Translations under genes and position numbers: made by a program | Notes under the pieces: generated by a model | The model's input: the letters and a program-made list of their open reading frames with translations, nothing else | Database searches by the model: none | Told to the model about the DNA's origin: nothing | Assembly (NCBI RefSeq): GCF_030815865.1 | Contig: NZ_JAUSXI010000001.1 | Location: 620,001 to 684,000 of the forward strand | Length of the DNA stretch: 64,000 bases | DNA from: Arthrobacter globiformis | Lineage (GTDB): Bacteria; Actinomycetota; Actinomycetes; Actinomycetales; Micrococcaceae | Direction: 5' to 3' | Part shown: positions 33,352 to 49,018 of the stretch, in pieces | Layout of the letters: each line of letters begins with the position of its first letter | How positions within the stretch are numbered: position 1 is the stretch's first letter

Positions 33352-33415
33352 GATTTCCTTCTTCTAAGTCTTGCCGCAGGCTTTCTCGAGCTACCGATCG
33401 AAGGAACCCACGACA

Positions 33416-34381
33416 ATGCCAGAAACTCCGCCTTCTTTGTCCATGACCGGCCCGCCCCGCGCAGCACCCCGGCCTGTGCACCCGCCTGCGACCCCGGTAG
33501 TGCCCCAGACGGGGCGGCTGCACGATGCTTTCCAGAACCAACTGGTGCTCGATTACCTGGATCTGGCGGAGGCGCTCGCCTCGCGGTTTGCAGCCCGGGG
33601 ACGGGAGCGCTCAGACCTGGTCCAGGTGGCCTACCTGGGGCTCATCAAGGCCGCCCGGGGCTTCGATGAGGAGAAGGGCGAAAGCTTCCCTGCCTACGCG
33701 GCGCCCACCATCAGCGGCGAACTCAAGCGCTTCTTGCGGGACCGGTGCTGGACCGTCCGGCCGCCACGGCGCATCCAGGACGTCCGGACGCAGCTCCAGC
33801 ACACCGCCCCGGACCTGGCCCAGTCGTTGGGCCGTGTTCCGTCGGCGCAGGAATTGGCCAGCGAACTGGGCGTTACCCCGGCTGACGTCCGGGAAGCGCA
33901 GGCCGCCGGCAGCAGCATGCATCCCGACTCGCTGGACAGCCCGGATCCCTGGGGCGGGCCAACCATGGGCGAGGGGCTGGTCTCCCCGGACCAGCCGATC
34001 GAGCACCTCGAAGAACTCGTGTGCCTCCACGAGGCAATCCAGGAGTTGGACCCTGACGACCGGGAGATGCTGTACCGGCGCTACTTCCGCGAGGAGACCC
34101 AGGTGGAACTCGGCAAACGGTTCGGCATCTCCCAGATGCAGGTGTCCCGGCGGCTGTCTCGGATCCTAGTTTGGCTGCAGCGCCGGCTGCTCGATGAGGA
34201 GGACCGGAGCGGCGAGGGCCGGAGCGGCGGCAGCGCCCGCAGCGCCAGGGGGGACAGCGATCGGGCAAGCGCGGATCAGGGGAGCCCGAGCCGCCCCACC
34301 GCCGCCAGGACATCCTCCACTGAAACTGCCAGCAGGGCCGGATCAGGAGTGGCCGCGAAGGTGTCGCCGCGGCGCGCCTGA
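33416..34381 (+). CDS. RNA polymerase sigma factor, SigB/SigF/SigG type
   Basis: The 321-residue protein has the sigma-70 group 3 layout: region 2 (LVLDYLDLAEALASRFAARG, then LVQVAYLGLIKAARGFD), region 3 (SGELKRFLRDRCWTVRPPRRIQD, LAQSLGRVPSAQELASELG), and region 4 (LDPDDREMLYRRYFREETQVELGKRFGISQMQVSRRLSRIL, split at residues 234-276). WTVRPPRRIQ is typical of SigB/SigF. Such factors drive general stress regulons and are usually held by anti-sigma factors, none of which is visible nearby. After residue 285 the chain continues in a low-complexity Ser/Arg/Ala tail that runs 106 bases antisense into the convergent glycosyltransferase gene, so the tail is probably not conserved. Start 33416 follows GAAGGAA. 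Confidence 0.87.
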   Translation: MPETPPSLSMTGPPRAAPRPVHPPATPVVPQTGRLHDAFQNQLVLDYLDLAEALASRFAARGRERSDLVQVAYLGLIKAARGFDEEKGESFPAYAAPTISGELKRFLRDRCWTVRPPRRIQDVRTQLQHTAPDLAQSLGRVPSAQELASELGVTPADVREAQAAGSSMHPDSLDSPDPWGGPTMGEGLVSPDQPIEHLEELVCLHEAIQELDPDDREMLYRRYFREETQVELGKRFGISQMQVSRRLSRILVWLQRRLLDEEDRSGEGRSGGSARSARGDSDRASADQGSPSRPTAARTSSTETASRAGSGVAAKVSPRRA

Positions 34382-35220
34382 GCGTCCGTTAGTACGATGT
34401 GCGGTCCTGGTGGTGGGCCCCAGACCTCAGCCGGGGCCGGACCGAAAAGCACCACCGAAGGCCGCGCATACGCAGAGGCGAGGTGCGCCGCACCGGTGTC
34501 CGCGGACACCACAAGCCGGGATTCCGCGATGGCGGCCATGAATTCGGCCAGCCGCAGCCGCCCCGCCAGGACCTGGACTTCCGGGAGCCCGGCGAGCCGT
34601 GCAACGTCCAGTGCCCGCGGCCGTTCCGCCGAGCTGCCGGTAAACATCACCCGGTGACCATCCTCCGCGAGGGTGCGGGCCACTTCGGCAAAGCGGTCCT
34701 CGGGCCACAGCCGGCTGCCGTATGCAGCCCCCACGTGCAGCACGGTGGCTCCAGGGCAGGGGCTGGGAACGGCCGGCGGGAGAAGCCGGAAATCGTCCGG
34801 TTCCGCGTCGATGCCATGCCACTGCAGCAGCCTGGTCCACCGCTCGCGCTCATGGATTTCCTCCAGCCACCCCGGGCCCGGCCGCTCGAGGGTCCGGTGG
34901 CCGACGATGGTTTTGGGCTGGACGGCGGTGATGCGGGCCTCGCTTTCGGGTCCGCTGCCGTGCAGGTTCACGGCGATATCCACCTTGCCTGCCTCGATGG
35001 GAATCGGAACGTCCAGGCCATGCGTCGGAAGCAGTTCGTAGCCTCCCACCAGCTCCAGCGCGTCTTCCAGCCAGTCCTGGGCCGCGTAGAGCAGGCGGTG
35101 TTCCGGATAGGCACGCCGCAGGGCGCGGAGCGCCGGAACCGCAACCAGCAAGTCGCCAAGCTTCAGTGCCCGCAGGACCAGCAGGACCGGTTGTTCATGC
35201 TTGCCGTTTGATGCTTCCAC
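34276..35220 (-). CDS. GT9 glycosyltransferase (heptosyltransferase family) 1
   Basis: The 314-residue enzyme belongs to family GT9, which includes LPS heptosyltransferases. LVLRALKLGDLLVAVPALRALRRAYP at residues 14-39 is the family N-terminal signature. VHLGGS-like elements appear as LHVGAAYGSRLWPEDRFAEVA, and the donor site is visible as SADTGAAHLASAYARPSVVLFGPAP. The GTG at 35220 follows GAAGGACGGCA and is preferred over the ORF's earlier start. It is divergent from gmhB and convergent with the sigma factor, overlapping its tail by 106 bases. It is one of three GT9 genes in a heptose biosynthesis cluster, so the likely donor is an NDP-heptose; the acceptor is unknown. Confidence 0.86.
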   Translation of the reverse strand: MEASNGKHEQPVLLVLRALKLGDLLVAVPALRALRRAYPEHRLLYAAQDWLEDALELVGGYELLPTHGLDVPIPIEAGKVDIAVNLHGSGPESEARITAVQPKTIVGHRTLERPGPGWLEEIHERERWTRLLQWHGIDAEPDDFRLLPPAVPSPCPGATVLHVGAAYGSRLWPEDRFAEVARTLAEDGHRVMFTGSSAERPRALDVARLAGLPEVQVLAGRLRLAEFMAAIAESRLVVSADTGAAHLASAYARPSVVLFGPAPAEVWGPPPGPHIVLTDAQARRGDTFAATPDPALLAVSVEDVLAAVGRLGLP

Positions 35221-35335
35221 TGCCGTCCTTCTCCTCCTCGGTCTGGTACTGCCGCGCCGCCTGTCGAGGAGTCTAGCGGAGAAGAAGTACGCGGCCTTCT
35301 GTTTAGGTCTCGCGTGGGCGGGGAACGAAGGGGAT

Positions 35336-35911
35336 ATGGCAAGTGATGCTTCTACGCTCAAGGCTGTGCTTTTCGACCGGGACGGGACGCTTGTAGTTGA
35401 CGTGCCTTACAACGGCGACCCGCAGAGGGTCACGCCCTTTCCCGGTGCGCGGAAAGTCCTCGACGAAGTGCGCAGCTTGGGACTGGCCACCGGCGTGCTG
35501 AGTAACCAGTCGGGCATTGCCCGCGGCCTCCTGACAGCCGAGGAGGTGGACAACGTGAACGCGCGGGTGGAGGACCTGCTGGGCCCTTTTGACGTCTGGG
35601 AGGTCTGCCCGCACGGGGCCGGGGATGGCTGCCTGTGCCGTAAGCCGTCGCCGGGCATGATCCACAGCGCCTGCCGGCGTCTCGGCATCGACCCTTCAGA
35701 GGCGGCGTTCATCGGCGACATCGGCAGCGACGTCGAGGCGGCCGCGGCCGCCGGTGCACGGGGGGTCCTGGTTCCCACTCCGCAGACCAGAACCGAAGAA
35801 GTCGAGGCCGCCGCCGAGGTAGCCGCAGACCTCGAGCAGGCTGTTGCGCTGCTGTTTGGGGAGCTGCTGCTTGGGGGACCTCGGGGACCGGTGCTTCGAG
35901 GACCGGCATGA
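35336..35911 (+). CDS. gmhB: D-glycero-beta-D-manno-heptose 1,7-bisphosphate 7-phosphatase
   Basis: GmhB removes the 7-phosphate from heptose 1,7-bisphosphate, the third step of NDP-heptose synthesis. The 191-residue HAD-IIIA protein shows the nucleophile motif FDRDGTL, motif II as GVLSNQSGIARG, the zinc-binding loop CPHGAGDGCLCRKP (Cys, His, Cys, Cys), which is characteristic of GmhB and histidinol phosphatases, and motif IV AFIGDIGSDVEAA. A histidinol-phosphate phosphatase is the main alternative, but the neighbours (gmhA, hldE, GT9) favour GmhB. Start ATG 35336 after GAAGGGG. It is coupled to the next GT9 gene by an ATGA overlap. Confidence 0.88.
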   Translation: MASDASTLKAVLFDRDGTLVVDVPYNGDPQRVTPFPGARKVLDEVRSLGLATGVLSNQSGIARGLLTAEEVDNVNARVEDLLGPFDVWEVCPHGAGDGCLCRKPSPGMIHSACRRLGIDPSEAAFIGDIGSDVEAAAAAGARGVLVPTPQTRTEEVEAAAEVAADLEQAVALLFGELLLGGPRGPVLRGPA

Positions 35912-36984
35912 GCAGGGTCCTCGTGGCCCGGCTGGACAGCGTCGGTGACGTCCTCCTGGCAGGCCCGGCAGTCCGGGCCGTGGCGAACGGACGGCGGGCC
36001 GACGGCGGCAGCCCCAACGACGTCGTCGTGCTTTGCGGACCGCAGGGCCAATCGGCGGCCTCACTGCTGCCCAATGTGGCCGACGTCTTTGCCTGGGACA
36101 CCCCGTGGATCAGCAACCCTGCCCCGGCGGTCACAGGACCGCATTTGGACTCGCTGGTGGGGTACGTCCGGAATTCCCGCATCACCGAGGCGGTCATCCT
36201 CACCTCCTTTCACCAGTCGCCGCTTCCGCTGGCGCTCCTCCTGCGGCTAGCCGGCGTGGAGCGCATCACCGGCGCGTCCACTGACTACGCGGGCACCCTC
36301 TTGGACGTCAGGCTGAAACCCGGCGAGGACTTTCCCGAGGACCAGCCGGAATCCGTTCGGGCGCTCGGCATCGCCCGGGCGGCGGGCTTCCAGCTCAAGA
36401 CGGGTGACGACGGAAAGCTCATGGTCAAGGACCCTCCCGGCATCCGGCACCTGGTGGGGGAGGGCCCCTACGTGGTGGTCCACCCGGGGGCAACGGTCCC
36501 GGCGCGGGCCTGGCCGCCGCTGCACCATGCGGCGGCCGTGGAGCTGCTGGAGGGCGCCGGCCACCGGGTGGTGGTGACCGGCGGTCCGGGGGAAACAGCC
36601 CTCACCGCAACCGTGGCCGGCCCTTCTGCCATTGACCTCGGCGGACGGACAGACCTTTCCACCCTCTCCGGTGTCCTGGCCAACGCGGATGTCGTGGTCA
36701 CCGGCAACACCGGGCCCGCCCACCTGGCCGCCGCCGTCGGAACCCCGGTGGTGAGCCTGTTTTCCCCGGTTGTGCCGGCCGTCCGGTGGGCGCCGTACGG
36801 CGTTCCGCTGGAACTGCTGGGCGACCAGAACGCGCCGTGCCGGCTCAGCCGCGCACGCGACTGTCCGGTACCGGGACATCCCTGCCTCAGCTCTGTTTCG
36901 CCGGAGCAGGTGGTGGAAGCCGTCGAACGCCTGCTGAGTGGGGTCTCCTCCCTCAGCACACGGAGAAAGGTCCGGAAACAATGA
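35908..36984 (+). CDS. GT9 glycosyltransferase (heptosyltransferase family) 2
   Basis: The 358-residue GT9 enzyme begins MSRVLVARLDSVGDVLLAGPAVRAV, a typical heptosyltransferase N terminus. Other family features are VILTSFHQSPLPLALLLRLAG, VVVHPGATVPARAWPPLHHAAAVELLEG, and the donor-site segment VTGNTGPAHLAAAVGTPVVSLFSP. The C terminus has CPVPGHPCLSSVSPEQV. It overlaps gmhB by 4 bases and the next gene by 4, so it is in the middle of a coupled run. Like its homologues it probably adds a heptose to a surface glycan; acceptor unknown. Confidence 0.87.
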   Translation: MSRVLVARLDSVGDVLLAGPAVRAVANGRRADGGSPNDVVVLCGPQGQSAASLLPNVADVFAWDTPWISNPAPAVTGPHLDSLVGYVRNSRITEAVILTSFHQSPLPLALLLRLAGVERITGASTDYAGTLLDVRLKPGEDFPEDQPESVRALGIARAAGFQLKTGDDGKLMVKDPPGIRHLVGEGPYVVVHPGATVPARAWPPLHHAAAVELLEGAGHRVVVTGGPGETALTATVAGPSAIDLGGRTDLSTLSGVLANADVVVTGNTGPAHLAAAVGTPVVSLFSPVVPAVRWAPYGVPLELLGDQNAPCRLSRARDCPVPGHPCLSSVSPEQVVEAVERLLSGVSSLSTRRKVRKQ

Positions 36985-38075
36985 GAATCCTGCTTTGGCA
37001 CGTGCACGGGTCGTGGACGGACGCCTTTGTCCGCGGCCGGCACGAGTACCTGCTGCCGGTCCTGCCCGGCGGCGGTCCCTGGGGACTGGGCCGGGCGGGC
37101 CGGCCCTGGCCAGCTTCCGTGCGGGAGGTCGCGCTCGCGGAGCTGGACTCCGGCAGTATTGACGCCGTCGTGCTTCAGCGTCCGGAGGAAGCCGCGGAGG
37201 TGACGCGCGTCCTGGGCCGCCGGACCGGCGTCGATCTTCCCGCCGTGTACGTGGAACACAACACCCCCAAGGGTGATGTTCCCTTCACCGTCCATCCGCT
37301 CGGGGATCAGAACGGCATCCCGATCGTCCACGTGACCCATTTCAACGAGCTGTTCTGGGACAGCGGCCGCGCACCGACCAAGGTCATCGAGCACGGCATC
37401 GCGGACCCCGGCTACCTTTACACGGGCGAGGTCCCGGAGCTGGGCGTGGTGGTCAATGAACCGGTGCGCCGCGGACGGGTGACGGGCACGGACCTGCTGC
37501 CCCGCTTCGCCACCGCAGCCCCGCTCCAGGTCTTCGGCATGGGCGGCGAGGGGCTGGCGCAGGCTACGGGAATTCCTTCGGCGCGCCTCACCGTCCGGGG
37601 CGATCTGAAAACCGCGGAGCTCCACCGTGAACTGGCGCGCTGCCGGGCATACCTGCACCCGCTGCGCTGGACTTCGCTTGGGCTGGCGCTGCTGGAGGCG
37701 ATGCATCTCGGCATGCCGGTCCTGGCGCTGGCCACCACCGAGGCGGCACGGGCCGTCCCGCCCGAGGCAGGCTGCATCTCCACTGACGTGGAGGAGCTGG
37801 GCCGGTGTGCCCGGCAGCTGGTCAACGATCCGGAGGAGGCGCGACGGCGGGGCAAAGTTGCCCGGGAAGCGGCGCTGGAGCGCTATGGGCTGGAACGTTT
37901 TCTGGCCGACTGGGATGAGCTGCTGGCGGATCTTGTGCCGGCCGGCGGCGGAGGGAAAGTACAGGGGGAGGGGCGGCTGCAGGGGTCTTTGGAGGGGGCG
38001 CCATCCGGCGATGCAGCTTTGAAGGGGTCCGGACCGGATGCCCTCACCGCGGCGCGAGAAGGGAATATGCATTGA
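36981..38075 (+). CDS. Glycosyltransferase (GT4-like)
   Basis: The 364-residue protein opens MRILLWHVHGSWTDAFVRG and has a GT-B fold: VYVEHNTPKGDVP and VTHFNELFWDSG in the N-terminal half, then a C-terminal donor domain with ELHRELARCRAYLHPLRWTSLGLALLEAMHLG, where the usual E-x7-E pair is visible across residues 213-245. AVPPEAGCISTDVEELG follows. It belongs to the group annotated as glycosyltransferase family 1/4; the sugar is unknown. A low-complexity Gly/Glu/Leu tail of about 45 residues ends the chain. ATGA overlap with the preceding GT9 gene, and its stop overlaps the TTG start of the next. Confidence 0.8.
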   Translation: MRILLWHVHGSWTDAFVRGRHEYLLPVLPGGGPWGLGRAGRPWPASVREVALAELDSGSIDAVVLQRPEEAAEVTRVLGRRTGVDLPAVYVEHNTPKGDVPFTVHPLGDQNGIPIVHVTHFNELFWDSGRAPTKVIEHGIADPGYLYTGEVPELGVVVNEPVRRGRVTGTDLLPRFATAAPLQVFGMGGEGLAQATGIPSARLTVRGDLKTAELHRELARCRAYLHPLRWTSLGLALLEAMHLGMPVLALATTEAARAVPPEAGCISTDVEELGRCARQLVNDPEEARRRGKVAREAALERYGLERFLADWDELLADLVPAGGGGKVQGEGRLQGSLEGAPSGDAALKGSGPDALTAAREGNMH

Positions 38076-39331
38076 AGATCTCAATGATTTCGGAACACGC
38101 CAGTCCTTTGGCAGCGCTTGGCGGAGTGGACGCCGGCGGCCAGAACGTCCATGTGGCGGCCCTTTCGTCGGCACTGGCCCGTCGGGGCCACCGGGTAACG
38201 GTCTACACGAGGCGTGACTCGCCGGATTTGCCCACGAGGGTGCGGGTGCATCCACGGCTCGAGGTGGTGCACGTGGACGCCGGGCCGGCCGAACATGTGC
38301 CCAAGGACGATCTGCTGCCCTTCATGGGCGCCCTGGCGGACGGCGTGGTCCGGGACTGGGACGGCTCGCCGCCGCACGTGGTGCACGGCCACTTCTGGAT
38401 GTCCGGCGTCGCCGCGCTGGACGCCGCACGCCGTGACCCGGGCGGCTTCCGGGTTCCGGTGGTGCAGACCTTCCACGCATTGGGCACGGTCAAGCGCCGC
38501 CACCAGGGCGCCGCCGACACGAGCCCGGCCGAGAGGCGTTTCCTCGAACCGTCCGTGGGCCGGTCGGCGGACCGGATCGTCGCCACGTGCTCCGACGAAG
38601 TGTTCGAGCTGAGGGCGATGGGGATCGATACCCGCCGGGTTTCCATCGCCCCCTGCGGAGTGGATCTGGAACTCTTCTCCAGCGACGGTCCGGCCGACCC
38701 TCCCTCCCGCTCCCACCGCATCCTGTCCGTGGGCCGCCTGGTCCCGCGCAAGGGTATGGATCTGGTGATCCGCGCGCTGCCGTATCTGCTGCAGGCGGGG
38801 TTCGACGACGTCGAGCTGCTCATTGTGGGCGGCGACGCGGACGCGGACGCGGGCGGGCAGGATCCGGAGGCGCGCAGGCTGCTGGACCTTGCCCGGGACC
38901 TCGGGGTGGCGGACCATGTGGAGCTCCGGGGCCAGGTCCCCCGGGAGGCCATGCCCGGAGTCTTCCGAAGTGCGGACGCTGTGGTCTGCACTCCGTGGTA
39001 CGAGCCCTTCGGGATTGTTCCGCTGGAGGCCATGGCCTGCGGCGTTCCGGTAGTTGCCGCTGCGGTGGGCGGCCTGACGGACAGCGTGGTGGACCGGGGA
39101 ACCGGCCTGCACGTGCCGCCGAAGGACCCGGAAGCCATCGCCAAAGCCATCGGCACCTTGTTGGCCAGCCCGGACCTGCGCGCAAAACTCGGGCGCGCCG
39201 GCGAGCGGCGGGCCAAAGCCCGCTACTCCTGGAGCAGAGTCGCCGCCGAAACCGAAAAGGCCTACCAGTTGGCTATCGCAGGTTCTGTAGACGCTGGCAG
39301 CCTGGAATCGATGGAAGGAGCGGCACTGTGA
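38072..39331 (+). CDS. Glycosyltransferase family 4
   Basis: The 419-residue enzyme has a clear GT4 architecture: N-terminal GGVDAGGQNVHVAALSSALARRGHRVTVYT, VHGHFWMSGVAAL, APCGVDLELF, and the C-terminal donor site with WYEPFGIVPLEAMACGVPVVAAAVGGL. These E-x7-E residues bind the nucleotide sugar. It resembles the retaining glycosyltransferases of cell-envelope glycan clusters, such as MshA-like or phosphatidylinositol mannosyltransferases; substrate undecided. It starts with TTG overlapping the preceding stop (TTGA), AAGGGA upstream. Its stop overlaps the gmhA GTG. Confidence 0.9.
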   Translation: MKISMISEHASPLAALGGVDAGGQNVHVAALSSALARRGHRVTVYTRRDSPDLPTRVRVHPRLEVVHVDAGPAEHVPKDDLLPFMGALADGVVRDWDGSPPHVVHGHFWMSGVAALDAARRDPGGFRVPVVQTFHALGTVKRRHQGAADTSPAERRFLEPSVGRSADRIVATCSDEVFELRAMGIDTRRVSIAPCGVDLELFSSDGPADPPSRSHRILSVGRLVPRKGMDLVIRALPYLLQAGFDDVELLIVGGDADADAGGQDPEARRLLDLARDLGVADHVELRGQVPREAMPGVFRSADAVVCTPWYEPFGIVPLEAMACGVPVVAAAVGGLTDSVVDRGTGLHVPPKDPEAIAKAIGTLLASPDLRAKLGRAGERRAKARYSWSRVAAETEKAYQLAIAGSVDAGSLESMEGAAL

Positions 39332-40068
39332 CTACGGAATCCCTGCGGGAGGCTGAGCTTCCTGCCATGAACCGGGTTGGCACACCGGGTTTTCCCTCTC
39401 TGGACGCGGACTCCTCCCCGGAGGAGGCTGGGCAGGACGACGCCCGGCACGACGCCAGTCCGGGCCCCCGGGAGGCAGTGCGGACCCACCTGGAAAACGT
39501 CCTGCCCGCCCTGCGGTCCCTGGAAAGCCAGGCAGACAGGCTGGCCGACTGGGGCGTGGAGCTGGCCCAGCGCCTGCTGAGCGGGCAGAAACTGCTTGCC
39601 GCCGGAAACGGCGGGTCCGCCGCCGAGGCGCAGCATCTGACTGCGGAACTTGTTGGCAGGTTCGACGGCGAGCGGATGCCCTTTTCCGCGATCTCCCTGC
39701 ACGCGGAGAGTTCGGCCGTCACGGCGATTGCCAATGACTACGGCTACGAAGAGCTCTTCGCCCGGCAGGTCCGCGCCCACGGCAGGTCGGGGGACATCCT
39801 CGTGCTGCTGTCCACGAGCGGCCAGAGCCCCAACCTGCTCCGTGCAGCCGAGGCGGCCTCCAGGCTGAACGTGACCACGTGGGCCCTGACCGGGCCGGCG
39901 CCCAACCCGCTGGCATCCTGCTGCGATGATGCCGTGGCCATCGATGCCATCTCGGCCAATGCCCAGGAGGGGCACCTGATTGCGCTGCACGCCATTTGCC
40001 GGGCCTTCGAAGCCGAGGTGGTTCGCAGGGGCCAGGGCGTCCCCGGGCCGGAGGCTGATCGCGGATGA
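39328..40068 (+). CDS. gmhA: Phosphoheptose isomerase (SIS domain)
   Basis: GmhA converts sedoheptulose 7-phosphate to D-glycero-D-manno-heptose 7-phosphate, the first committed step of heptose activation. The 246-residue protein has an acidic N-terminal extension of about 50 residues, then the isomerase core. Visible conserved parts are AAGNGGSAAEAQHLTAELVGRF (about residues 88-109), TAIANDYGYEELFARQV, LLSTSGQSPNLLRAAEAA and the C-terminal NAQEGHLIALHAICRAFE, which retains both histidines. The E65 and H180 equivalents are present, so it should be active. GTG start overlaps the preceding stop (GTGA) after GGAAGGAG. Its paralogue at 19892 lacks these residues. Confidence 0.9.
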   Translation: MTTESLREAELPAMNRVGTPGFPSLDADSSPEEAGQDDARHDASPGPREAVRTHLENVLPALRSLESQADRLADWGVELAQRLLSGQKLLAAGNGGSAAEAQHLTAELVGRFDGERMPFSAISLHAESSAVTAIANDYGYEELFARQVRAHGRSGDILVLLSTSGQSPNLLRAAEAASRLNVTTWALTGPAPNPLASCCDDAVAIDAISANAQEGHLIALHAICRAFEAEVVRRGQGVPGPEADRG

Positions 40069-41426
40069 GGATCGCAGTGGTGGGTGACGTTTTGCTGGAC
40101 GTAGACCTTTCCGGTGAGGCAACACGCCTGTGCCCCGACGCGCCGGTGCCGGTGGTGGACGTCTCCGAGGTCCGGCGCCGGGCCGGCGGCGCCGGGCTCG
40201 TGGCCCGAATGCTGGCCCAGGACGGCCACCGGGTCACCCTGGTTACGGTGCTTTCCGACGACGACGCCTCCCTCGAGCTGGAAGGCGCCCTCGCCGGGGT
40301 GCATGTTGTCTCCGGGCCCTCCGGCGCGCGGACGCCGGTCAAGACCCGGGTCCGGGCAGGCCGCCAGCCGGTGGTGCGGGTGGATGAGGGATGCGGGCGG
40401 CCGGAGGTGCCGGCGGCGACGGCGGGCATGCTCAGGGCGCTGGAGCGCGCCGAAGCGATTGTGGTGGCCGATTATGGACGCGGTGTTGCCGCGAACCGGG
40501 AGATCCGCGACCTCCTCGCCGCCCGTGCCGGCGACATTCCGATCGTGTGGGATCCGCACCCCTCCGGTGCCGCACCCGTGCCCGGGGTGGCCGTGGTGAC
40601 CCCAAACTTGTCCGAGGCTGCCAAGGCCGCGGACTCCGGTACCGGTACGCCTGCGGCGATTGCCGCCATCGGCACCCTGCTGCTGGACCGCTGGCAGAGC
40701 CAGGCGGTCCTTGTGACCATGGGGGAGCAGGGCGGCACCCTATCTCAGCGCGACACTTCACCCTTGGCCATCCCGGCCCCTCCCACCGAAGTCACTGATC
40801 CCTGCGGCGCCGGCGACCGGCTCGCGGCCAGTCTGGCCGTGCACCTGGCAGGGGGCTGCAGCCTCAGAGACGCCGCGGAACGTGCGATCAATGAGGCGGC
40901 AGCCTTCCTCGGTGCCGGCGGGGTGGCCTCCCTGCCGGACCGCCACCGGCCGGTCTGGCACCACAGCCGCGAGGAAGACGCCCTCGGCCTTGCGCGCCGG
41001 GTGCGCGCCAACGGGGGAACCGTCGTAGCCACGGGAGGCTGCTTCGACCTGCTGCACGCCGGCCACGCCCGCACGCTGGCGGCAGCCAGGGACCTGGGCG
41101 ACTGCCTGATCGTGTGCCTGAACTCGGACGAGTCGGTGCGCCGGATCAAAGGTGAGCAGCGGCCCATTGTGAGCCAGCAGGACCGAGCCGAGCTCCTGCT
41201 GGCGCTCGAGTGTGTGGACGCCGTCCTGGTCTTCGGGGAGGACACCCCGGAGGCCTGCCTGGAAACGCTGCGGCCGGACGTCTGGGTGAAGGGCGGGGAC
41301 TACCGCGCGTCGGAGCTTCCCGAGGCCGGGCTGGTCGAGAGCTGGGGAGGGCGCTGCATGACGGTGCCGTTCCACCAGGCCCGGTCCACGTCCGTCCTCG
41401 CGGACGCCCTGGCAAAGGTCAGCTGA
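40065..41426 (+). CDS. hldE: Bifunctional heptose kinase/nucleotidyltransferase 1
   Basis: HldE proteins phosphorylate heptose 7-phosphate at C1 and later join heptose 1-phosphate to a nucleotide. The 453-residue chain is a PfkB kinase (about 1-300) followed by a cytidylyltransferase-like domain (about 320-453). The kinase start GDVLLDVDLSGEATRLCPDAP and the ATP-site DPCGAGDRLAASLAVHL are recognisable, but the usual GGAANVAMN stretch is altered to RAGGAGLVARMLA. The transferase has GGCFDLLHAGHARTL, LNSDESVRRIKG and the KGGDY motif. The kinase half is more divergent than in the second copy at 45253. ATGA overlap with gmhA. Confidence 0.88.
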   Translation: MRIAVVGDVLLDVDLSGEATRLCPDAPVPVVDVSEVRRRAGGAGLVARMLAQDGHRVTLVTVLSDDDASLELEGALAGVHVVSGPSGARTPVKTRVRAGRQPVVRVDEGCGRPEVPAATAGMLRALERAEAIVVADYGRGVAANREIRDLLAARAGDIPIVWDPHPSGAAPVPGVAVVTPNLSEAAKAADSGTGTPAAIAAIGTLLLDRWQSQAVLVTMGEQGGTLSQRDTSPLAIPAPPTEVTDPCGAGDRLAASLAVHLAGGCSLRDAAERAINEAAAFLGAGGVASLPDRHRPVWHHSREEDALGLARRVRANGGTVVATGGCFDLLHAGHARTLAAARDLGDCLIVCLNSDESVRRIKGEQRPIVSQQDRAELLLALECVDAVLVFGEDTPEACLETLRPDVWVKGGDYRASELPEAGLVESWGGRCMTVPFHQARSTSVLADALAKVS

Positions 41427-41470
41427 CCTTCACAACAAATCTTGAACTAGTCCCAAGCGAAAGGAACACC

Positions 41471-42172
41471 ATGACTGAATCGACTTTCAAGCCAGGCCGG
41501 GTGCTGGTAACCGGCGGCGCCTCCGGACTGGGAGCCGCCGTCGTCGATGCCGTACTGAAAGCCGGCGGAACGCCGGTGGTGCTGGACCGGGACATCCGGA
41601 ACGTCGCCGCGGCGAAGGCCTTTGAAGTGGACGTGTCGGACCGCGTTGCCGTGACCGAGGCCGTCCGGCAGGCAGCCGAAACCCTGGACGGGCTGGACGC
41701 CGTGGTCACCGCTGCCGGTATCGACCGGTGCGGCAAGCTGGAGGACGTGGCCGCAGAGGAATGGGAACGCGTCATCGGCGTCAACCTGATGGGCACGGTG
41801 TCCGTTGTCCGGGCGGCCCTTCCGTACCTCAAAGCGTCGCACGGCCGGGTGGTCACCATCGCGTCCACGCTGGGCAAACGGGCGCTGCCGGAGGCCACCG
41901 CCTACTGCGCCTCGAAATTCGCCGTAGTGGGCTTCAGCCATTCGCTGGCCGCCGAGACCGGCGGCGAGATTGGCGTGACCACCATGATTCCAGGCGGCAT
42001 GAAGACGCGCTTCTTCGACGACCGCGCCGAGCAGTACAAGCCGCAGGACGACTCACGCCTCAACGACCCCGGCAACGTGGCGCAGGCAATTCTGTTTGTG
42101 CTGTCCCAGCCCACCGGCTGCGAGGTCCGCGAAATGCTTATCTGCCATGAGGAAGAGGGCTCGTGGCCGTGA
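41471..42172 (+). CDS. Short-chain dehydrogenase/reductase in the heptose cluster
   Basis: The 233-residue SDR has VLVTGGASGLGAAVVDAV (NAD(P) site), DAVVTAAGIDRCGKLEDV, TIASTLGKRALPEATAYCASKFAV with the Ser, Tyr and Lys of the active site, and a C terminus ending VREMLICHEEEGSWP. GAAAGGA lies 6 bases before the ATG. It follows hldE1 by 44 bases in the same direction. Its small size and classical motifs do not match HldD, which is an extended SDR, so it probably does not epimerise the heptose; it could reduce a keto-sugar or modify the product. It ends convergent with GT9 gene 3 with a 35-base overlap. Confidence 0.85.
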   Translation: MTESTFKPGRVLVTGGASGLGAAVVDAVLKAGGTPVVLDRDIRNVAAAKAFEVDVSDRVAVTEAVRQAAETLDGLDAVVTAAGIDRCGKLEDVAAEEWERVIGVNLMGTVSVVRAALPYLKASHGRVVTIASTLGKRALPEATAYCASKFAVVGFSHSLAAETGGEIGVTTMIPGGMKTRFFDDRAEQYKPQDDSRLNDPGNVAQAILFVLSQPTGCEVREMLICHEEEGSWP

Positions 42173-43367
42173 GCTGGAGAACATCCTCGTAGACTTCCCC
42201 GGGTTCGACGGCCTTAACGGTGGACTCGTCATGCGGGCACCGTGGGGCCGTCCACCCGACCTGGGTGACGTCCACGCCGCACACCGGGCAGCGCGTGACC
42301 CAGCCGAGCCGGATGCGGTGCTTACTGCGGCCCAGCGGGGCGGCGTTGATGGCATTGCCCGCCCAGTAGATGCCCACTGTGGACGTGCCGAGGGCCTGGG
42401 CGAGGTGGCGCGGTCCGCTGTCGTTCGCCACCACGACGGCGCTGCCCGCAAGCAGGGCGGCAAGCTCACCCAGGCTGAGTTTGCCGGCCAGTGACTCTAC
42501 GGCGGGGCGGGCGGCGCCGGACTCGTCCGCGGGGGATTGTTCCGTGCTGGATTGTTCTGCGGCGAGTTCCACCACCGCCTCGGCAAGTTCCTTTTCGCTG
42601 CTGTCGCCCACCACGTAAACCCGGAAACCGTCGTCGGCGGCCTTCCGTGCCACCGCGGCGAAGCGTTCGGCCGGCCAGCGCCGGCGCGGATCCGTCGCGC
42701 CCGGATGGATCACCAGCACGCGGCCCTGCCCGGGCCCGTCGTAGCCCAGCCCCGGCCCGCCGTTCCCCAAAGGCAGGTCCTGGGCGAGCCGCTGGCCAAA
42801 CTCAGGCAGCGCCTCGAGCCTCGCTTCCAGCTCACGGGGAGGGGCCCCGGCGAATCCCGCCACCTCGAGGGCCCGGAGCGGCTCGTGCTGGTAGTACACG
42901 TAGGGCACGGTCCGCTCCAGCGGAGCGGCGTCCGGAGTTCTGGTGCCCACGGCGTGCCGGGCCCCGAGGCGCAGCAGGAAAGGATTCGAGTACCGGCCGC
43001 CGCCGTGCAACTGGACGGCCAGGTCAAAGTTCCTGCCACGCATCGCTGCAAAGAACCGTTCCACTTCTTCGTCGTCTTCCGGCCCCGGGCGGACCCCTTC
43101 GGCGAACGGCAGAATCACCGTCTCATCCACCGGTCCCACCGTCTGCGCCAGCAGTTCAGCGTGTACAGGCGTGCCCAGCAGGGTGACGCTGGCCCCAGGG
43201 TAGGCGGCCTTCAGGGCTGCAACCGCCGGGAGGGCAAACATCAGGTCGCCCAGCCCGCCGCCACGGAGAACGGCGATGCGGGAGACGCCGCTGAAGGGTT
43301 CCAAAACCGGGCCGATTCCGTGCCCTGTGATGCGTGCTCCGCCGAAGTCGGCGTTGAAGAGTTCCAT
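42138..43367 (-). CDS. GT9 glycosyltransferase (heptosyltransferase family) 3
   Basis: The 409-residue enzyme is the largest of the three GT9 proteins. It has IAVLRGGGLGDLMFALPAVAALKAAYPG (residues 30-57), HPGATDPRRRWPAERFAAVARKA, the donor segment VVVANDSGPRHLAQALGTSTVGIYWAGNAINAAP, and a C-terminal cysteine set CPVCG and CPHDE that may bind metal. A Glu/Ser-rich insert (about 270-295) separates the halves. Family assignment is firm; the likely donor is an NDP-heptose given the neighbours. It is transcribed opposite to the rest of the cluster. Confidence 0.86.
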   Translation of the reverse strand: MELFNADFGGARITGHGIGPVLEPFSGVSRIAVLRGGGLGDLMFALPAVAALKAAYPGASVTLLGTPVHAELLAQTVGPVDETVILPFAEGVRPGPEDDEEVERFFAAMRGRNFDLAVQLHGGGRYSNPFLLRLGARHAVGTRTPDAAPLERTVPYVYYQHEPLRALEVAGFAGAPPRELEARLEALPEFGQRLAQDLPLGNGGPGLGYDGPGQGRVLVIHPGATDPRRRWPAERFAAVARKAADDGFRVYVVGDSSEKELAEAVVELAAEQSSTEQSPADESGAARPAVESLAGKLSLGELAALLAGSAVVVANDSGPRHLAQALGTSTVGIYWAGNAINAAPLGRSKHRIRLGWVTRCPVCGVDVTQVGWTAPRCPHDESTVKAVEPGEVYEDVLQLTATSPLPHGR

Positions 43368-43732
43368 GGTGTCAGCCCTCTCGGCTCCGGATCGTTCAGG
43401 TCGGGATGCGTTCAGGTCGGATCGGATCAGTGGGGCCCACCCTACGGTGCATCGGGCCTGTTTTGCCAGCTCAGAAAACCCGGCCCGCCAGCTGAGTAAG
43501 ACCAGCCGCCAGCTCTGAAAACTCCTGCCGGAGGCGCGTGTAAACCCCTCGACGCCGGGGTACGGATCACCTCAGAGAGGGCGGGAACGGACGCCCGGCA
43601 ACACTGAGCAGCATGCCTAAAGACCAGTGCCTTGAGACCAGTGCCTTGGAGACCGAGAATCGAAGGACCAGCGTCTGGAGACCCAGCGCCTGCAGCCCCG
43701 GTGGCACAGGCCAAGCCCCAGTGAGGAGCCAC
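43368..43732. other. Intergenic region with degenerate short repeats
   Basis: No gene is visible. The region separates the leftward GT9 gene from the rightward aldehyde dehydrogenase and should contain both promoters. Two 14-base copies of GACCAGTGCCTTGA/G (43624-43651) are followed by related units (ACCAGCGTCTGG, ACCCAGCGCCTG) to about 43698, a decayed tandem array. TTCAGGTCGG occurs twice near 43396-43419. Confidence 0.5.
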
Positions 43733-45256
43733 ATGCAATCCACCATCACCAGCGAGCTGGCGAATGCGGAAGACACGCTCACCATCCTGAACCCGCGAAC
43801 GGGGGACACCGTCGGCAACCTTTCCGTCGCCGGCGCACATGATGTGGCAGGAGCCGTGGCGGCGGCCCGCGCTGCCCAACCCGGCTGGGCTGCCACGCCT
43901 CCCGGGGAGCGGGGCCAGCTGCTGCGCCGGGCCGCCCGGGCGCTGGACGCGGCCGCTGCCGAACTTGCTGATCTGAACGCACAGGAGACCGGCCGTCCGG
44001 TGGATGAGGCCCTTGCCGGTATTGCCGCCGGTGTTTCCACGCTGGAGCAGTATGCGGAGCTCGGTCCCGTACACCGCGGCCACAGCCTGCGCGGCAACAT
44101 GCTCGCAGCGGACTACACCGTCGCCGAGCCGCGCGGCGTGGCGGTGCTGCTGACGCCGTGGAACGATCCCGTCGCCGTGGCCTGCGGGCTCATAGGGGCC
44201 GCCCTGGTTACCGGGAACACGGCCATTCACAAACCGAGCGAGCGCTGCCCCCACGTGGGAGAGCTGCTGGGGGAGGCGCTGGCGCCGGTATTTCCGCCCA
44301 ACGTGCTGGTCACGCTGACAGGAGGAGCCGACGTCGGGACCCTCCTCACGCAGCAGTCTGACGTGGATATGTTCGCCCACGTCGGGTCCAGCGCGACCGG
44401 TGACCGGATTGCGCGGGCGGCGGTGCTGACGGGTGCCCATGTCATCAGGGAAAACGGCGGGAACGATCCGCTGCTGGTGGATGCGGACGTGGATCCCGGC
44501 TGGGCCGCGGAGCAGGCGGCGATCGGGGCCTTCAGCAACAGCGGGCAGATCTGCACGTCAGTGGAGCGGATCTACGTCCACCGGTCCATCGCCGAACCGT
44601 TCTGCCATGCGCTCGCCGGACAGGCCCGGGACCGGAACACAGAACGCCGGCTCGCGCCGCTCGTGGACACCCGGATGCGGGATGCGGTCCACCGGCACGT
44701 GGCCGAGGCGCTGCAGCTGGGTGCCCGGGCCGTGGAGGGCGGCACGGTCCCGGACGGGCCAGGCGCCTTCTACCCGGCCACGGTCCTGTTGGACTGCACC
44801 GACACCATGGACGTCATGGCAGAGGAAACATTCGGCCCTGTCGCTCCGGTGCGTGTGGTGGACAGCTTCGAGGAAGGGCTCACGCTCGCCGCGGCCGGCC
44901 GGTACGGACTTGCCGCCACCGTTCTGACCGGCACCATCGCCCACGCCCAGCAAGCCGTCGCCGCGCTGCCGGTGGGGACCGTCAAGGTCAACGAAGTGTT
45001 CGGCGGCGCACCCGGCGGAGCCGCCCAGCCCCGGGGCGAAAGCGGGCACGGGTTTGGCTACGGGCCCGAACTCCTGGACGAATTCACACGCGTAAAGGTG
45101 GTGCACATCGCTGCGCCGCCTGCGCCGGAGGCCCAAGCCCGGCAAGCTAACGACGCTGGGCCAGGTGAAGGGGCAGTGGCAGGTGAAGGGGCAGTGTTAG
45201 GTGATGGGGCAGTGCCAGTTGATGGGGCATTGCCAGCTGACGGGGCAGCATCGTGA
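43733..45256 (+). CDS. Aldehyde dehydrogenase (NAD(P)-dependent)
   Basis: The 507-residue protein matches the aldehyde dehydrogenase superfamily. Visible parts are LLTPWNDPVAVACGLIGAALVTGN, the catalytic Glu in HVIRENGGNDPLLVDAD, the nucleophilic Cys in NSGQICTSVERIYVH, and the C-terminal EETFGPVAPVRVV, VGTVKVNEVFGGAPGGA. The ATG at 43733 follows GAGGAGCCAC, so the longer upstream reading is not used. The last 30 residues are five hexapeptide repeats (GEGAVA type) encoded by exact 18-bp units. Substrate is unknown; in this cluster it may oxidise a sugar aldehyde. Its stop overlaps the hldE2 GTG. Confidence 0.87.
   Translation: MQSTITSELANAEDTLTILNPRTGDTVGNLSVAGAHDVAGAVAAARAAQPGWAATPPGERGQLLRRAARALDAAAAELADLNAQETGRPVDEALAGIAAGVSTLEQYAELGPVHRGHSLRGNMLAADYTVAEPRGVAVLLTPWNDPVAVACGLIGAALVTGNTAIHKPSERCPHVGELLGEALAPVFPPNVLVTLTGGADVGTLLTQQSDVDMFAHVGSSATGDRIARAAVLTGAHVIRENGGNDPLLVDADVDPGWAAEQAAIGAFSNSGQICTSVERIYVHRSIAEPFCHALAGQARDRNTERRLAPLVDTRMRDAVHRHVAEALQLGARAVEGGTVPDGPGAFYPATVLLDCTDTMDVMAEETFGPVAPVRVVDSFEEGLTLAAAGRYGLAATVLTGTIAHAQQAVAALPVGTVKVNEVFGGAPGGAAQPRGESGHGFGYGPELLDEFTRVKVVHIAAPPAPEAQARQANDAGPGEGAVAGEGAVLGDGAVPVDGALPADGAAS
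45164..45250 (+). repeat. 18-bp tandem repeat in the aldehyde dehydrogenase 3' end
   Basis: Five units of about 18 bases (GGTGAAGGGGCAGTGGCA and variants) start at 45164, 45182, 45200, 45218 and 45236. They encode GEGAVA/GEGAVL/GDGAVP/VDGALP/ADGAAS. The unit is a multiple of three, so copy-number change would keep frame. Confidence 0.9.
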
Positions 45257-46884
45257 CCGCCGGGACACCCGGCGCCGGGGGACTCGCCGGGGACGACGGC
45301 GGCCCGATGTCTTCCAAACCGGAGTTTTCCGAATCTGGGCGTTCCGCATCAGGGCTTTCCGAACCTGCGGTTTCCGAACCTGCGCTTTCAGAACAGCGCG
45401 GCCTTGCGGCGTGGCTTCCCCGGAGGCTGGCCCAGGAGCATCCTGCCGTCACCGTCGTGGGCGACTTCATGCTCGACGGCTGGTGGACCGGCACGATCGA
45501 CAGGATGTGCCGCGAGGCCCCGGCTCCCGTGGTGGACATCGTCCGGCGTGATTTTGCCCCCGGCGGTGCCGCCAACACGGCCATGAACCTGGCCGCACTC
45601 GGCGCGCGTGTCAGTGTGGCAGGAATCATCGGAGCGGACGACGCCGGCGCGGAACTTCGGCGCCAACTGATCGCCGCGGGGGTGGACACCAGGCTGCTCG
45701 CCGAACACCCGGACATGGCCACCCCCACCAAGATCCGGATCAGCAGCGGCGGCCAGGTCCTCCTGCGCTTCGACGACACCGCGGCAACTGTCCCGCCCGA
45801 AGCCCTGGCGACGTTCGAGGCGGCGGTTCCCGCCGCCGTCGGACACCAGAACGCGGTGGTGATCTGCGACTACGGAACGGGCGTCCTCGCAGAACCGGTC
45901 CGCGGCCGGCTCATCGGATCCCTGGCCGGGCGCGGTCAGGACACGCTTGTGGTGGTGGACGCGCACGATCCGCGCCCGTGGGCCGGACTTGAGCCGGACC
46001 TGGTCACGCCCAACGCGCAGGAGGCCGCCCGGATGCTTGACCTCCGGCTGGGCAGCGGGCCCGAGCGCGCGGCGGTGGTGACCGAGCACGCCGGCGAGCT
46101 GCTGCAGGCGACGGGAGCACGCGCCGTCGTGGTCACGCTGGACCGGGACGGGACGGTCCTCATTCCGGTCGCCGGAAACCCGCACCGGACGTGGGCGCGG
46201 CCTGCCACCGAGAAGCAGGCCTCCGGCGCGGGCGACACGTTCGTGGCTGCCCTGACCCTGGCGCGTGCGGCGTCGTTGCCGCTGTCGGCCAGCCTGGACC
46301 TGGCGCAGGCCGCTGCGGATGTGGTGGTCCATCATCCCGGGACGTCGGTGTGCGGCACGGACGAGCTGGGCCGCTACCTGGAAAGCTTCGGGGACGCCGC
46401 CCTTACGGCAGACGAACTGGAGCGGCACATAAGGGCCCACCGCAACGACGGCCAGCGCGTGGTGCTGACCAACGGCTGTTTCGACGTGCTGCACCGGGGG
46501 CACACTCGTTACCTGAACCAGGCCAAGCAGCTCGGCGACGTCCTGGTGGTGGCACTCAACAGTGACGACTCCGTCCGGAAGCTCAAGGGGCCGGGCCGTC
46601 CTATCAACAGCGTGGCGGACCGGGCGGCCGTGATCGCCGCCCTGAGCTGCGTGGACTACGTGACCGTCTTCGACACCGCGACTCCGATTCCCCTGATCGA
46701 ACGGCTGCGTCCGGAAATCTACGCCAAGGGCGGGGACTATACGCCGGAGATGCTGGCCGAAACCGAGGCCGTGGAGGCGTACGGTGGCACGGTCACCATC
46801 CTCGACTATGTGGCCGAGCGTTCCACCACGGCGATGGTCCAGCGCATACGCAACGGCGAGGGCGCCCCTGTCCCGGAGGGGTAA
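45253..46884 (+). CDS. hldE: Bifunctional heptose kinase/nucleotidyltransferase 2
   Basis: The 543-residue protein is a second HldE. After an acidic/Ser-rich N terminus of about 65 residues, the kinase has a canonical VVGDFMLDGWWTGTIDRMCREAP and PGGAANTAMNLAALG and the ATP-site KQASGAGDTFVAALTLA. The nucleotidyltransferase (about 400-543) has VLTNGCFDVLHRGHTRYLNQA, LNSDDSVRKLKGPGRPIN and YAKGGDYTPE. All expected HldE landmarks are present, so this copy looks fully active. It uses a GTG overlapping the previous stop (GTGA). Its N-terminal tail carries 15-bp tandem repeats (SEPAV type), an unusual extension relative to the family. Whether it makes ADP- or another NDP-heptose cannot be told. Confidence 0.9.
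   Translation: MTAGTPGAGGLAGDDGGPMSSKPEFSESGRSASGLSEPAVSEPALSEQRGLAAWLPRRLAQEHPAVTVVGDFMLDGWWTGTIDRMCREAPAPVVDIVRRDFAPGGAANTAMNLAALGARVSVAGIIGADDAGAELRRQLIAAGVDTRLLAEHPDMATPTKIRISSGGQVLLRFDDTAATVPPEALATFEAAVPAAVGHQNAVVICDYGTGVLAEPVRGRLIGSLAGRGQDTLVVVDAHDPRPWAGLEPDLVTPNAQEAARMLDLRLGSGPERAAVVTEHAGELLQATGARAVVVTLDRDGTVLIPVAGNPHRTWARPATEKQASGAGDTFVAALTLARAASLPLSASLDLAQAAADVVVHHPGTSVCGTDELGRYLESFGDAALTADELERHIRAHRNDGQRVVLTNGCFDVLHRGHTRYLNQAKQLGDVLVVALNSDDSVRKLKGPGRPINSVADRAAVIAALSCVDYVTVFDTATPIPLIERLRPEIYAKGGDYTPEMLAETEAVEAYGGTVTILDYVAERSTTAMVQRIRNGEGAPVPEG
45326..45400 (+). repeat. 15-bp tandem repeat in the hldE2 5' end
   Basis: Five 15-base units (TTTCCGAACCTGCGG and variants) start at 45326, 45341, 45356, 45371 and 45386 and encode FSESG/RSASG/LSEPA/VSEPA/LSEQR. 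They lie only 76 bases past the 18-bp array in the preceding gene. Confidence 0.85.
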
Positions 46885-46982
46885 AACCGCTGGCTGGGCC
46901 TGCCGGTGATCGAGCTGTGGCCCGGCAGGCCCCACCACCCGGTCAACTAGGCTTGAAGCATGACGGAAGCGGCGGAGAACTG

Positions 46983-47984
46983 ATGGCACGGCGCACCAAG
47001 TCAGGCGGAAAGCCGGGTTCCAACGCAGGCAGCAAAACAGGCGGAAGAAGAGGCACGGCAGTGGCCTCCGAGGTGCTGGAAGTCCCCAAGGGAGCGCCTG
47101 CCGGCGGCCCCGTTGAGGGCGTCTACTACATCGACACTGGCGACTGCGAGCTCATCGCCGACCAGGACAACTCCACGGGCTGGCTCCTGCGCATCAACGG
47201 CGTGATGAGTTCCCACATTGACCTTGCCGATCCGCTGTTCCTCGACTTCGAGTACATGCGCTGGATGTCCGCCCTCATCGAATCCCGCTGGCAACCTGCG
47301 ACCAAACCCAGGCTGCGGGGTCTGCACCTGGGCGGCGGAGCGTGCTCACTGGCGCGCTACTTCCACGCGGCCTACCCGGACGCCCGGCAGGTGGTGGTGG
47401 AACTGGACGGGAAGCTCGCCGAGTACGTCCGCGGCTGGTTCGACCTGCCCAAGGCCCCGCTGCTGCGGCTGCGCGTCGGCGAAGCCCGCGCCGTGACCGA
47501 GACCCTCACCCCGGACACCCGCGACTTCATCATCCGGGACGTCTTCGCCGGTGCCGTGACCCCGTTTCCGCTGACCACGGCGGAGTTCAACGGGCATGTC
47601 CGCCGGGTGCTCGCCCCCGGCGGCATCTACGTGGTCAATTCGGGCGACGGCCCTGACCTGAAGAATGCCCGTGAGGACGCCGCCACCATCGCGGCCGCCT
47701 TCGAACACACCATCATCATCGCGGACCCCGCCATGCTGAAGGGGCGCCGCTACGGCAACATGGTGATGGCCGGCAGCGATCAGCCGTTCGACGACGATCC
47801 ACAGCTCGCGCGGCGGCTCTTGGGCGGGGCAGTGCCCGCGCACATCTGGAACGACGCCAAGGTGCGGGCATTCGCCGCCGGAGCCCAGGTGCGCCACGAC
47901 CCTGCGCCTAGCGCAGATGCCGAACCCGGCACGGACCCCGCAATCACCGCCGACCCCGGGCATCAGCCGTCAGTCAGCGACTGA
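46983..47984 (+). CDS. Spermidine synthase-like methyltransferase-fold protein
   Basis: The 333-residue protein has a PAPT/spermidine-synthase core: GVYYIDTGDCELIADQDNSTGWLLRINGVMSSHIDLADP, then LFLDFEYMRWMSALI, the nucleotide-binding glycine motif RGLHLGGGACSLARYF, and VVVELDGKLAEYVRGWF. Later FIIRDVFAGAVTPFPLTTAEFNGHV corresponds to the catalytic region. Actinobacterial members of this group are often soluble and not proven to make spermidine. A basic, Gly/Ser-rich N terminus of about 35 residues precedes the core. GGCGGAGAACTG precedes the ATG at 46983. It is convergent with the LysR gene and overlaps it by 15 bases. Confidence 0.75.
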   Translation: MARRTKSGGKPGSNAGSKTGGRRGTAVASEVLEVPKGAPAGGPVEGVYYIDTGDCELIADQDNSTGWLLRINGVMSSHIDLADPLFLDFEYMRWMSALIESRWQPATKPRLRGLHLGGGACSLARYFHAAYPDARQVVVELDGKLAEYVRGWFDLPKAPLLRLRVGEARAVTETLTPDTRDFIIRDVFAGAVTPFPLTTAEFNGHVRRVLAPGGIYVVNSGDGPDLKNAREDAATIAAAFEHTIIIADPAMLKGRRYGNMVMAGSDQPFDDDPQLARRLLGGAVPAHIWNDAKVRAFAAGAQVRHDPAPSADAEPGTDPAITADPGHQPSVSD

Positions 47985-48887: not shown

Positions 48888-49018
48888 ATCTGCAATTTTG
48901 CACGAATCCAGTGCCTGATTAGTCATTGAACCGCGTTCCGTCTGCAGGAATACTCGGGGAAATCGGAAGTGCTGCACGACGCGGCACGTGTCAGCGTGGA
49001 CACTTGGAGGAGCAGACT

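Follow-up and report, generated by a model that had tools for sequence, protein, structure and literature searches.

A widespread actinobacterial cassette of heptose-type precursor genes and glycosyltransferases, and its version in Arthrobacter globiformis

Gene content of the cassette

We analysed a stretch of 64,000 nucleotides from Arthrobacter globiformis (the window; positions 620001-684000 of one 5.11 Mb contig; 67% G+C), in which a cassette of genes related to those for heptose synthesis and transfer in lipopolysaccharide (LPS) formation is found. At this locus the nearest named relatives are Arthrobacter and Pseudarthrobacter. Two divergent genes open the cassette. GT9a, an enzyme of glycosyltransferase family 9 (the heptosyltransferase family; PF01075, 81.2 bits), begins with GTG and lies on the minus strand at 34276-35220, and a gap of 115 bases separates it from a GmhB-like HAD-IIIA phosphatase on the plus strand (35336-35911; above the cut-off of the HAD-IIIA model), with a purine-rich stretch ahead of both starts. 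GmhB is followed on the same strand by GT9b, a second family 9 enzyme (35908-36984; PF01075, 80.7 bits), by GT4x, a cassette-typical GT-B glycosyltransferase (36981-38075) with a modest Glycos_transf_1 Pfam match of 36.6 bits, and by GT4y, an MshA-like GT4 glycosyltransferase (38072-39331; PF00534, 144.9 bits). Next come GmhA, a SIS-domain sedoheptulose-7-phosphate isomerase with a GTG start (39328-40068; PF13580, 79 bits when scored within a longer open reading frame (ORF)), and HldE1, a Leu-type bifunctional kinase/adenylyltransferase with PfkB and CTP_transf_like domains (40065-41426). Five 4-base overlaps join these six genes from GmhB to HldE1.

The 3' part of the cassette begins with a classical short-chain dehydrogenase (SDR) on the plus strand (41471-42172; PF00106, 143.9 bits). 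GT9c, the third family 9 enzyme, lies on the minus strand (42138-43367; PF01075, 93.4 bits in a whole-genome search), and it is followed on the plus strand by a cassette-specific aldehyde dehydrogenase (ALDH; 43613-45256, start perhaps at 43733; PF00171, 354.9 bits) and by HldE2, a canonical Asn-type bifunctional kinase/adenylyltransferase (45253-46884), which overlaps the ALDH gene by four bases. Domain and model searches confirmed every enzyme that the initial annotation had listed (GmhA, GmhB, two bifunctional HldE proteins, three GT9 enzymes and two other glycosyltransferases), and the 4-base stop-start overlaps it described were found at six junctions. The SDR and the ALDH, both recurrent members of the set, were missing from its list, and the minus strand of GT9a and GT9c went unstated. 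Scans for promoters and terminators gave signals no more frequent than in shuffled sequence, and Rfam and tRNA scans gave no matches.

We then compared the predicted enzymes with characterized proteins, using residue numbers that we take to mark the catalytic positions of GmhA and WaaC. GmhA is 30% identical to the Escherichia coli enzyme and keeps H61, E65, R69, D94, S119, T120, S121, S124, Q172 and H180, with Ala at the position of D169. GmhB is 35% identical to E. coli GmhB and has the DxD and CPH...CxC motifs. PF01075 matches no gene of the genome other than the three GT9 genes. Their products all keep the equivalents of WaaC D13, E222 and H266 and all have Arg in place of K192; the D261 position is kept in GT9a and is Asn in GT9b. 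The AlphaFold2 model of GT4x (mean pLDDT 81.4) has the GT-B fold, with the retaining enzymes PimB' and BshA, and also TarM, as remote fold neighbours. GT4y scores 260.7 bits with the MshA model TIGR03449, under its cut-off of 462.5.

Conservation and variants among relatives

A scan of named genomes gave no fewer than 582 relatives, and the 80 best were retained as named loci; 15 of these had cut flanks and were left out, and 65 fully flanked loci were counted. We took GmhB-GT9b-GT4x-GT4y-GmhA-HldE1 as the core. It occurs in this order on one strand in 49 of the 65 loci, while 13 (including Nocardia and Mycobacterium) have all six genes in another arrangement and three are incomplete. The conserved synteny that the initial annotation proposed to look for in actinobacteria is therefore strongly evident. 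The best 80 include Streptomyces, Nocardia, Mycobacterium sp., Micromonospora, Actinoplanes, Cellulomonas, Dietzia, Kineococcus, Blastococcus and Parafrankia, together with one Acidimicrobiales and one Chloroflexi metagenome-assembled genome. All six core genes were also present in 17 of 20 larger regions from relatives, five of the 17 from other families of the order; the other three regions are cut, one within the operon and two at contig ends. Recurrence of the gene arrangement in further families and orders shows that the cassette is not a chance assembly. Within the genus its distribution is patchy: two strong HldE matches lie a few kilobases apart in 24 of 36 genomes, and the other 12 have no such pair.

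An evenly sampled set of 396 genomes from the phylum gave a similar picture. The HldE1 class (above 450 bits) was found in 32 genomes and the GT4x class in 32, with both in 29 (Fisher P = 2.8e-37, a statistic that ignores shared ancestry), and 38 of 39 GT4x genes had an HldE match on their own strand no more than 8 kb away.

The glycosyltransferase complement varies. Two GT9-type matches were found in 53 of the 65 fully flanked loci, three in six and one in six. Of 13 same-genus regions, four have GT9b as their sole GT9, so neither GT9a nor GT9c is essential to the cassette. In one same-genus genome about 8 kb separates the SDR from GT9c (L046:6335-14500); the two are adjacent in other loci. 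Some relatives have composite reading frames. A single open frame in Dietzia (L061:4597-6162) holds an MftF-like GT2 domain and a GmhB domain; comparably long frames occur elsewhere among the relatives and may be either genuine fusions or ORFs called too long. In Micromonospora (L116:5308-7149) GmhB-like and GT9 domains share one open frame, and similar frames occur in Actinoplanes, Paractinoplanes and Dactylosporangium.

The two dehydrogenases recur as well. The SDR gene lies directly 3' of HldE1 in 41 of the 65 loci and its product shares 51-59% identity with those in five regions outside the family but within the order. ALDH is present in 29 of the 65. The window's ALDH is 47-75% identical to cassette-adjacent ALDHs elsewhere and at most 34.8% identical to any of the 29 paralogues compared from its own genome, and 31 of 35 cassette-locus ALDHs, the window's included, form one clade. 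Outside that clade fall the protein of L075, a named locus (27% identical), and three of the five from extra ORFs; these three, in L141, L144 and L145, may be miscut. Both catalytic residues, Glu and Cys, are present in 32 of 32. Occurring together, SDR and ALDH suggest that the product may carry a carboxylate.

Further genes distinguish two versions of the cassette. Within about 10 kb, 48 of the 65 loci have a carbamoyltransferase match, 45 an NDP-sugar epimerase and 50 a GT2 glycosyltransferase. In the eight Arthrobacter-type loci, a group that includes Planctomonas and Curtobacterium and was defined after HldE2 had been seen in it, carbamoyltransferase and epimerase were each found in none and HldE2 in all eight. 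HldE2 occurs in nine of the 65 loci overall and in one of the 57 outside this group, and none of its nine loci has the carbamoyltransferase. A genome search likewise found no carbamoyltransferase of the cassette family in A. globiformis. A carbamoyltransferase on Sinorhizobium meliloti pSymB was rejected as part of the same cassette: an incomplete table of 17 annotated neighbours from one pSymB record had a single glycosyltransferase, at a distance of about 10 kb, as its sole cassette-type gene.

Relatives of the cassette extend beyond the Actinomycetota. GT4x has matches on Burkholderiales replicons too, which account for ten of 14 plasmid records. Plasmids of Caballeronia and Paraburkholderia carry GT2, GT4y, GmhB, GT9, carbamoyltransferase, GT2, GT9, GT4x and epimerase genes, and both copies that we opened also have a PIG-L deacetylase. 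Beside both lies an unusual fusion, an ABC exporter (membrane and ATPase parts) with a C-terminal response-regulator receiver domain (L185:14018-16681 and L186:1655-4345). By position the carbamoyltransferase lies about 2 kb from GT4x in nine of ten Burkholderiales records, the tenth falling outside the 40 of 157 matches listed. We found no GmhA, ALDH or cassette-type SDR in the 25 kb read of either plasmid, and no HldE on either whole replicon. Burkholderiales-type hosts make ADP-heptose for LPS, and these two presumably encode HldE elsewhere. Such a cassette would need no precursor genes of its own because the host LPS pathway could supply ADP-heptose. A GT4x match on a Clavibacter plasmid was set aside as a partial or different locus, since neither GmhA nor HldE lies near it and no HldE is on the plasmid.

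Several neighbours recur beside the cassette. A spermidine-synthase-like gene 3' of HldE2 (46917-47984, plus strand; NF037959, 66.8 bits), whose membership in the cassette is uncertain, adjoins HldE2 in 19 of 24 other same-genus loci and has tblastn matches in six of the 80 named loci. Farther 3', a 3-hydroxybutyrate dehydrogenase above its curated cut-off (48926-49789) lies beside a divergent LysR regulator, and in several loci of the genus this pair is likewise kept on the 3' side of HldE2 and its spermidine-synthase-like neighbour. On the other side, a sigma-70-family sigma factor with regions 2, 3 and 4 (33371-34381) converges on GT9a with a 3' overlap of about 105 bases; it has tblastn matches in 13 of the 20 relatives' regions and in 15 of the 80 named loci. 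A cassette copy on a Streptomyces plasmid is flanked by GAF/ANTAR, PP2C and STAS genes. Together, the sigma factor and these flanks hint at stress regulation.

Two HldE subfamilies and the missing epimerase

Both HldE proteins consist of a PfkB kinase domain fused to an HxGH adenylyltransferase domain, with the HxGH and KGGDY motifs kept. Both pass the cut-off of the adenylyltransferase model TIGR02199 (181.5 bits), HldE1 with 183.2 and HldE2 with 196.1 bits. The kinase domains differ at one position. The GGAAN motif is intact in HldE2 and reads GGAGL, with Leu45, in HldE1; we take the Asn of GG-A-x-N to be a signature of PfkB enzymes. Of 139 HldE sequences, 106 have Leu at this position and 33 have Asn, and in the tree a single branch separates the Leu group from the Asn group (support 0.988 and 1.0). 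Most members of the Leu class have CGAGDR and WDPHP, compared with TGAGDT and IDPKG in E. coli. Thus, HldE1 and HldE2 are assigned by their sequences to two different subfamilies, and so clean a split offers a direct handle on substrate specificity.

In the LPS pathway HldD acts as the epimerase. The initial annotation saw no HldD in the window, and none was found by score in the whole genome either: the best match to TIGR02197 reached 91.3 bits, against a cut-off of 274.6. We considered the epimerase at 32166-33230 as the missing enzyme and rejected it, since its best NCBIfam match (71.5 bits) is to a sugar-epimerase family and the HldD model is not among its 15 matches. Four NAD-epimerases from relatives were rejected as well, three scoring 58-71 bits with the HldD model and the fourth having no match at 1e-15; all four are closer to dTDP-glucose dehydratase than to HldD.

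A proposed heptose glycoconjugate pathway and its relation to known systems

We propose, with a probability of about two in three, that an old and widespread cassette uses ADP-D,D-heptose to make a glycoconjugate and that the locus represents the form it takes in one lineage. From the observed genes, motifs, gene order, co-occurrence and subfamily split, we infer the enzymatic steps, sugar form, transfer order, oxidation and decoration as follows. GmhA would convert sedoheptulose 7-phosphate to D-glycero-D-manno-heptose 7-phosphate, HldE1 and/or HldE2 would phosphorylate C1, GmhB would take off the 7-phosphate and the C-terminal domain of HldE would form ADP-D,D-heptose. The sugar would remain D,D because there is no HldD. 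GT9b, GT4x and GT4y, with GT9a and GT9c where present, could then extend an acceptor at the cytoplasmic face with a short oligosaccharide that contains heptose, and a carboxylate may arise as SDR and ALDH oxidise a sugar or an alcohol of the acceptor. Further decoration would be added by the carbamoyltransferase, NDP-sugar epimerase and GT2 of most named relatives, whereas Arthrobacter-type loci have a second HldE instead.

Several findings weigh against this proposal. Most of the enzymes score below curated models. GmhA reaches 141.2 bits with the gmhA model TIGR00441 (cut-off 209.45), and GmhB reaches 112 bits with the beta-type equivalog (cut-off 178) and 46.4 with the alpha-type NF050049 (cut-off 250). 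The kinase model TIGR02198 gives 175.2 bits for HldE1 and 209.7 for HldE2 (cut-off 345), and the whole-protein model PRK11316 gives 299.9 and 364.5 (cut-off 521). None of the family 9 enzymes reaches the level of heptosyltransferase I, II or III: GT9a has 76 bits with the heptosyltransferase I model (cut-off 185.3), GT9b 58 (134.6) and GT9c 67 with the heptosyltransferase II model (134.6). Because only the adenylyltransferase domains pass a curated cut-off, the other cassette proteins are, on their scores, relatives of the LPS enzymes rather than members of those families. The loci with a single GT9 also make GT9a and GT9c inconstant partners, HldE1 lacks the Asn that marks PfkB kinases and its sugar pocket may differ, and the GmhB retained in Burkholderiales cassettes despite the LPS supply may act on something else. 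The co-occurrence statistics, finally, take no account of common descent.

An alternative, which we consider unlikely, is that the product is a secreted small molecule made by a natural-product sugar pathway rather than an envelope glycan. Such pathways have parallels in the heptose routes of septacidin and hygromycin B and in the carbamoylated-sugar genes of bleomycin. The frequency of the carbamoyltransferase and epimerase near the cassette is consistent with this explanation, as is the exporter fusion that adjoins both opened Burkholderiales copies. In 13 viewed loci, moreover, no cassette ORF has more than two hydrophobic segments, so no flippase or polymerase is among them. On the other hand, the gene order and multi-family spread are broader than would be expected of one antibiotic, and no polyketide, peptide or nucleoside synthase was found among the few flanking families scanned, most flanks being unscanned.

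It is less probable still that HldE1 is not a heptose enzyme, the Leu-type proteins activating another sugar phosphate such as a hexose and HldE2 alone making ADP-heptose in the window. The replacement of the PfkB Asn in all 106 members of the class, the CGAGDR and WDPHP motifs of most of them and the low kinase-domain score of HldE1 would fit this explanation. However, most relatives pair HldE1 with GmhA and GmhB and have no HldE2 in the locus, and the HldE1 model (pLDDT 88.3) has HldA and, for its C-terminal part, HldC structures as nearest folds. What speaks most strongly for a heptose role of HldE1, its altered motif notwithstanding, is that similar cassettes use a canonical HldE. Four genomes without an HldE1-class match (G185, G291, G381 and G244) have a similar cassette with an Asn-type HldE (L139, L141, L142 and L143). 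The G244 cassette shares 56-65% identity with the queries in its carbamoyltransferase, GT2 and GT4x and 37-49% in its remaining genes. For the transferases of the other three, identity is no more than 33-45%, which also counts against our proposal. The two HldE classes probably feed the same kind of pathway and look interchangeable.

The initial annotation had also seen no flippase or polymerase, and we found none in the locus; the Wzx model PF01943, positive in 13 of 14 control genomes, has no match in the whole genome. A polymeric capsule or S-layer protein glycan, exported by a Wzx/Wzy or ABC route encoded elsewhere, is the least likely of the alternatives. In its favour are the heptose of Gram-positive S-layers and a single Wzy_C match far from the cassette (35.1 bits, cut-off 31.7); against it are the absence of PF01943 and of any exporter or polymerase among the recurrent cassette-near families scanned, ABC-type exporters not having been searched for. 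A glycolipid or secreted oligosaccharide fits better than a Wzx/Wzy polymer.

Returning to the proposed heptose glycoconjugate, we suggest more tentatively that it could represent a novel class shared by actinobacteria and Burkholderiales, made from ADP-D,D-heptose by GT9, GT4x and GT4y, oxidised by SDR and ALDH and often carbamoylated, with the Leu-type HldE having evolved for it and the Gram-negative hosts tapping their LPS heptose pool. The initial annotation regarded the locus as a candidate for an undescribed system. The association of heptose-type precursor genes with glycosyl transfer in a Gram-positive bacterium stands, but the system is not isolated, being spread across the phylum and having relatives in Burkholderiales. 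Heptose in Gram-positive bacteria is itself known from S-layer glycans, septacidin, hygromycin and M. tuberculosis gmhA. The novelty, to our knowledge, seems to lie in a heptose glycosyltransferase cassette that is broadly conserved and comes with an HldE subfamily of its own and with oxidising and carbamoylating partners. Heptose biosynthesis is usually taken as a mark of LPS. From the spread of the cassette, whose named carriers include species of Streptomyces, Nocardia, Micromonospora and Arthrobacter, we predict a cell component or secreted glycoside that has so far gone unrecognised, and the defined set of genes offers a way to look for it. Since ADP-heptose also acts as an innate immune ligand, actinobacteria bearing the cassette might release it.

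Among known systems, the GDP-D,D-heptose pathway (HddA/HddC), which serves S-layer glycans and is represented by gmhA-gmhB-hddA in M. tuberculosis, resembles the cassette in GmhA, GmhB, D,D-heptose and Gram-positive hosts. It differs in that the cassette has a fused beta-type HldE rather than HddA and HddC, which were not sought genome-wide, and a GmhB far below the alpha-type cut-off. The bleomycin genes BlmC, BlmD, BlmE and BlmG resemble the carbamoyl variant in bringing together an HldE-like nucleotidyltransferase, a carbamoyltransferase, a GT9 and an epimerase; their sugars are hexoses, no GmhA is known among them, and the window's genome lacks the cassette-family carbamoyltransferase. The Streptomyces antibiotics septacidin and hygromycin B share the route from sedoheptulose 7-phosphate to NDP-heptose in an actinobacterium, but each is one strain's antibiotic cluster, whereas the glycosyltransferase cassette described here is phylum-wide. 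The ADP-heptose pathway of Gram-negative LPS (GmhA, HldE, GmhB, HldD and WaaC/WaaF) has the same precursor families, catalytic motifs and GT9 transferases, but LPS itself is not known from such actinobacterial hosts. Unlike it, the cassette has no HldD by score, has two HldE subfamilies and GT9 enzymes below the heptosyltransferase cut-offs, and adds GT4x, GT4y, SDR and ALDH.

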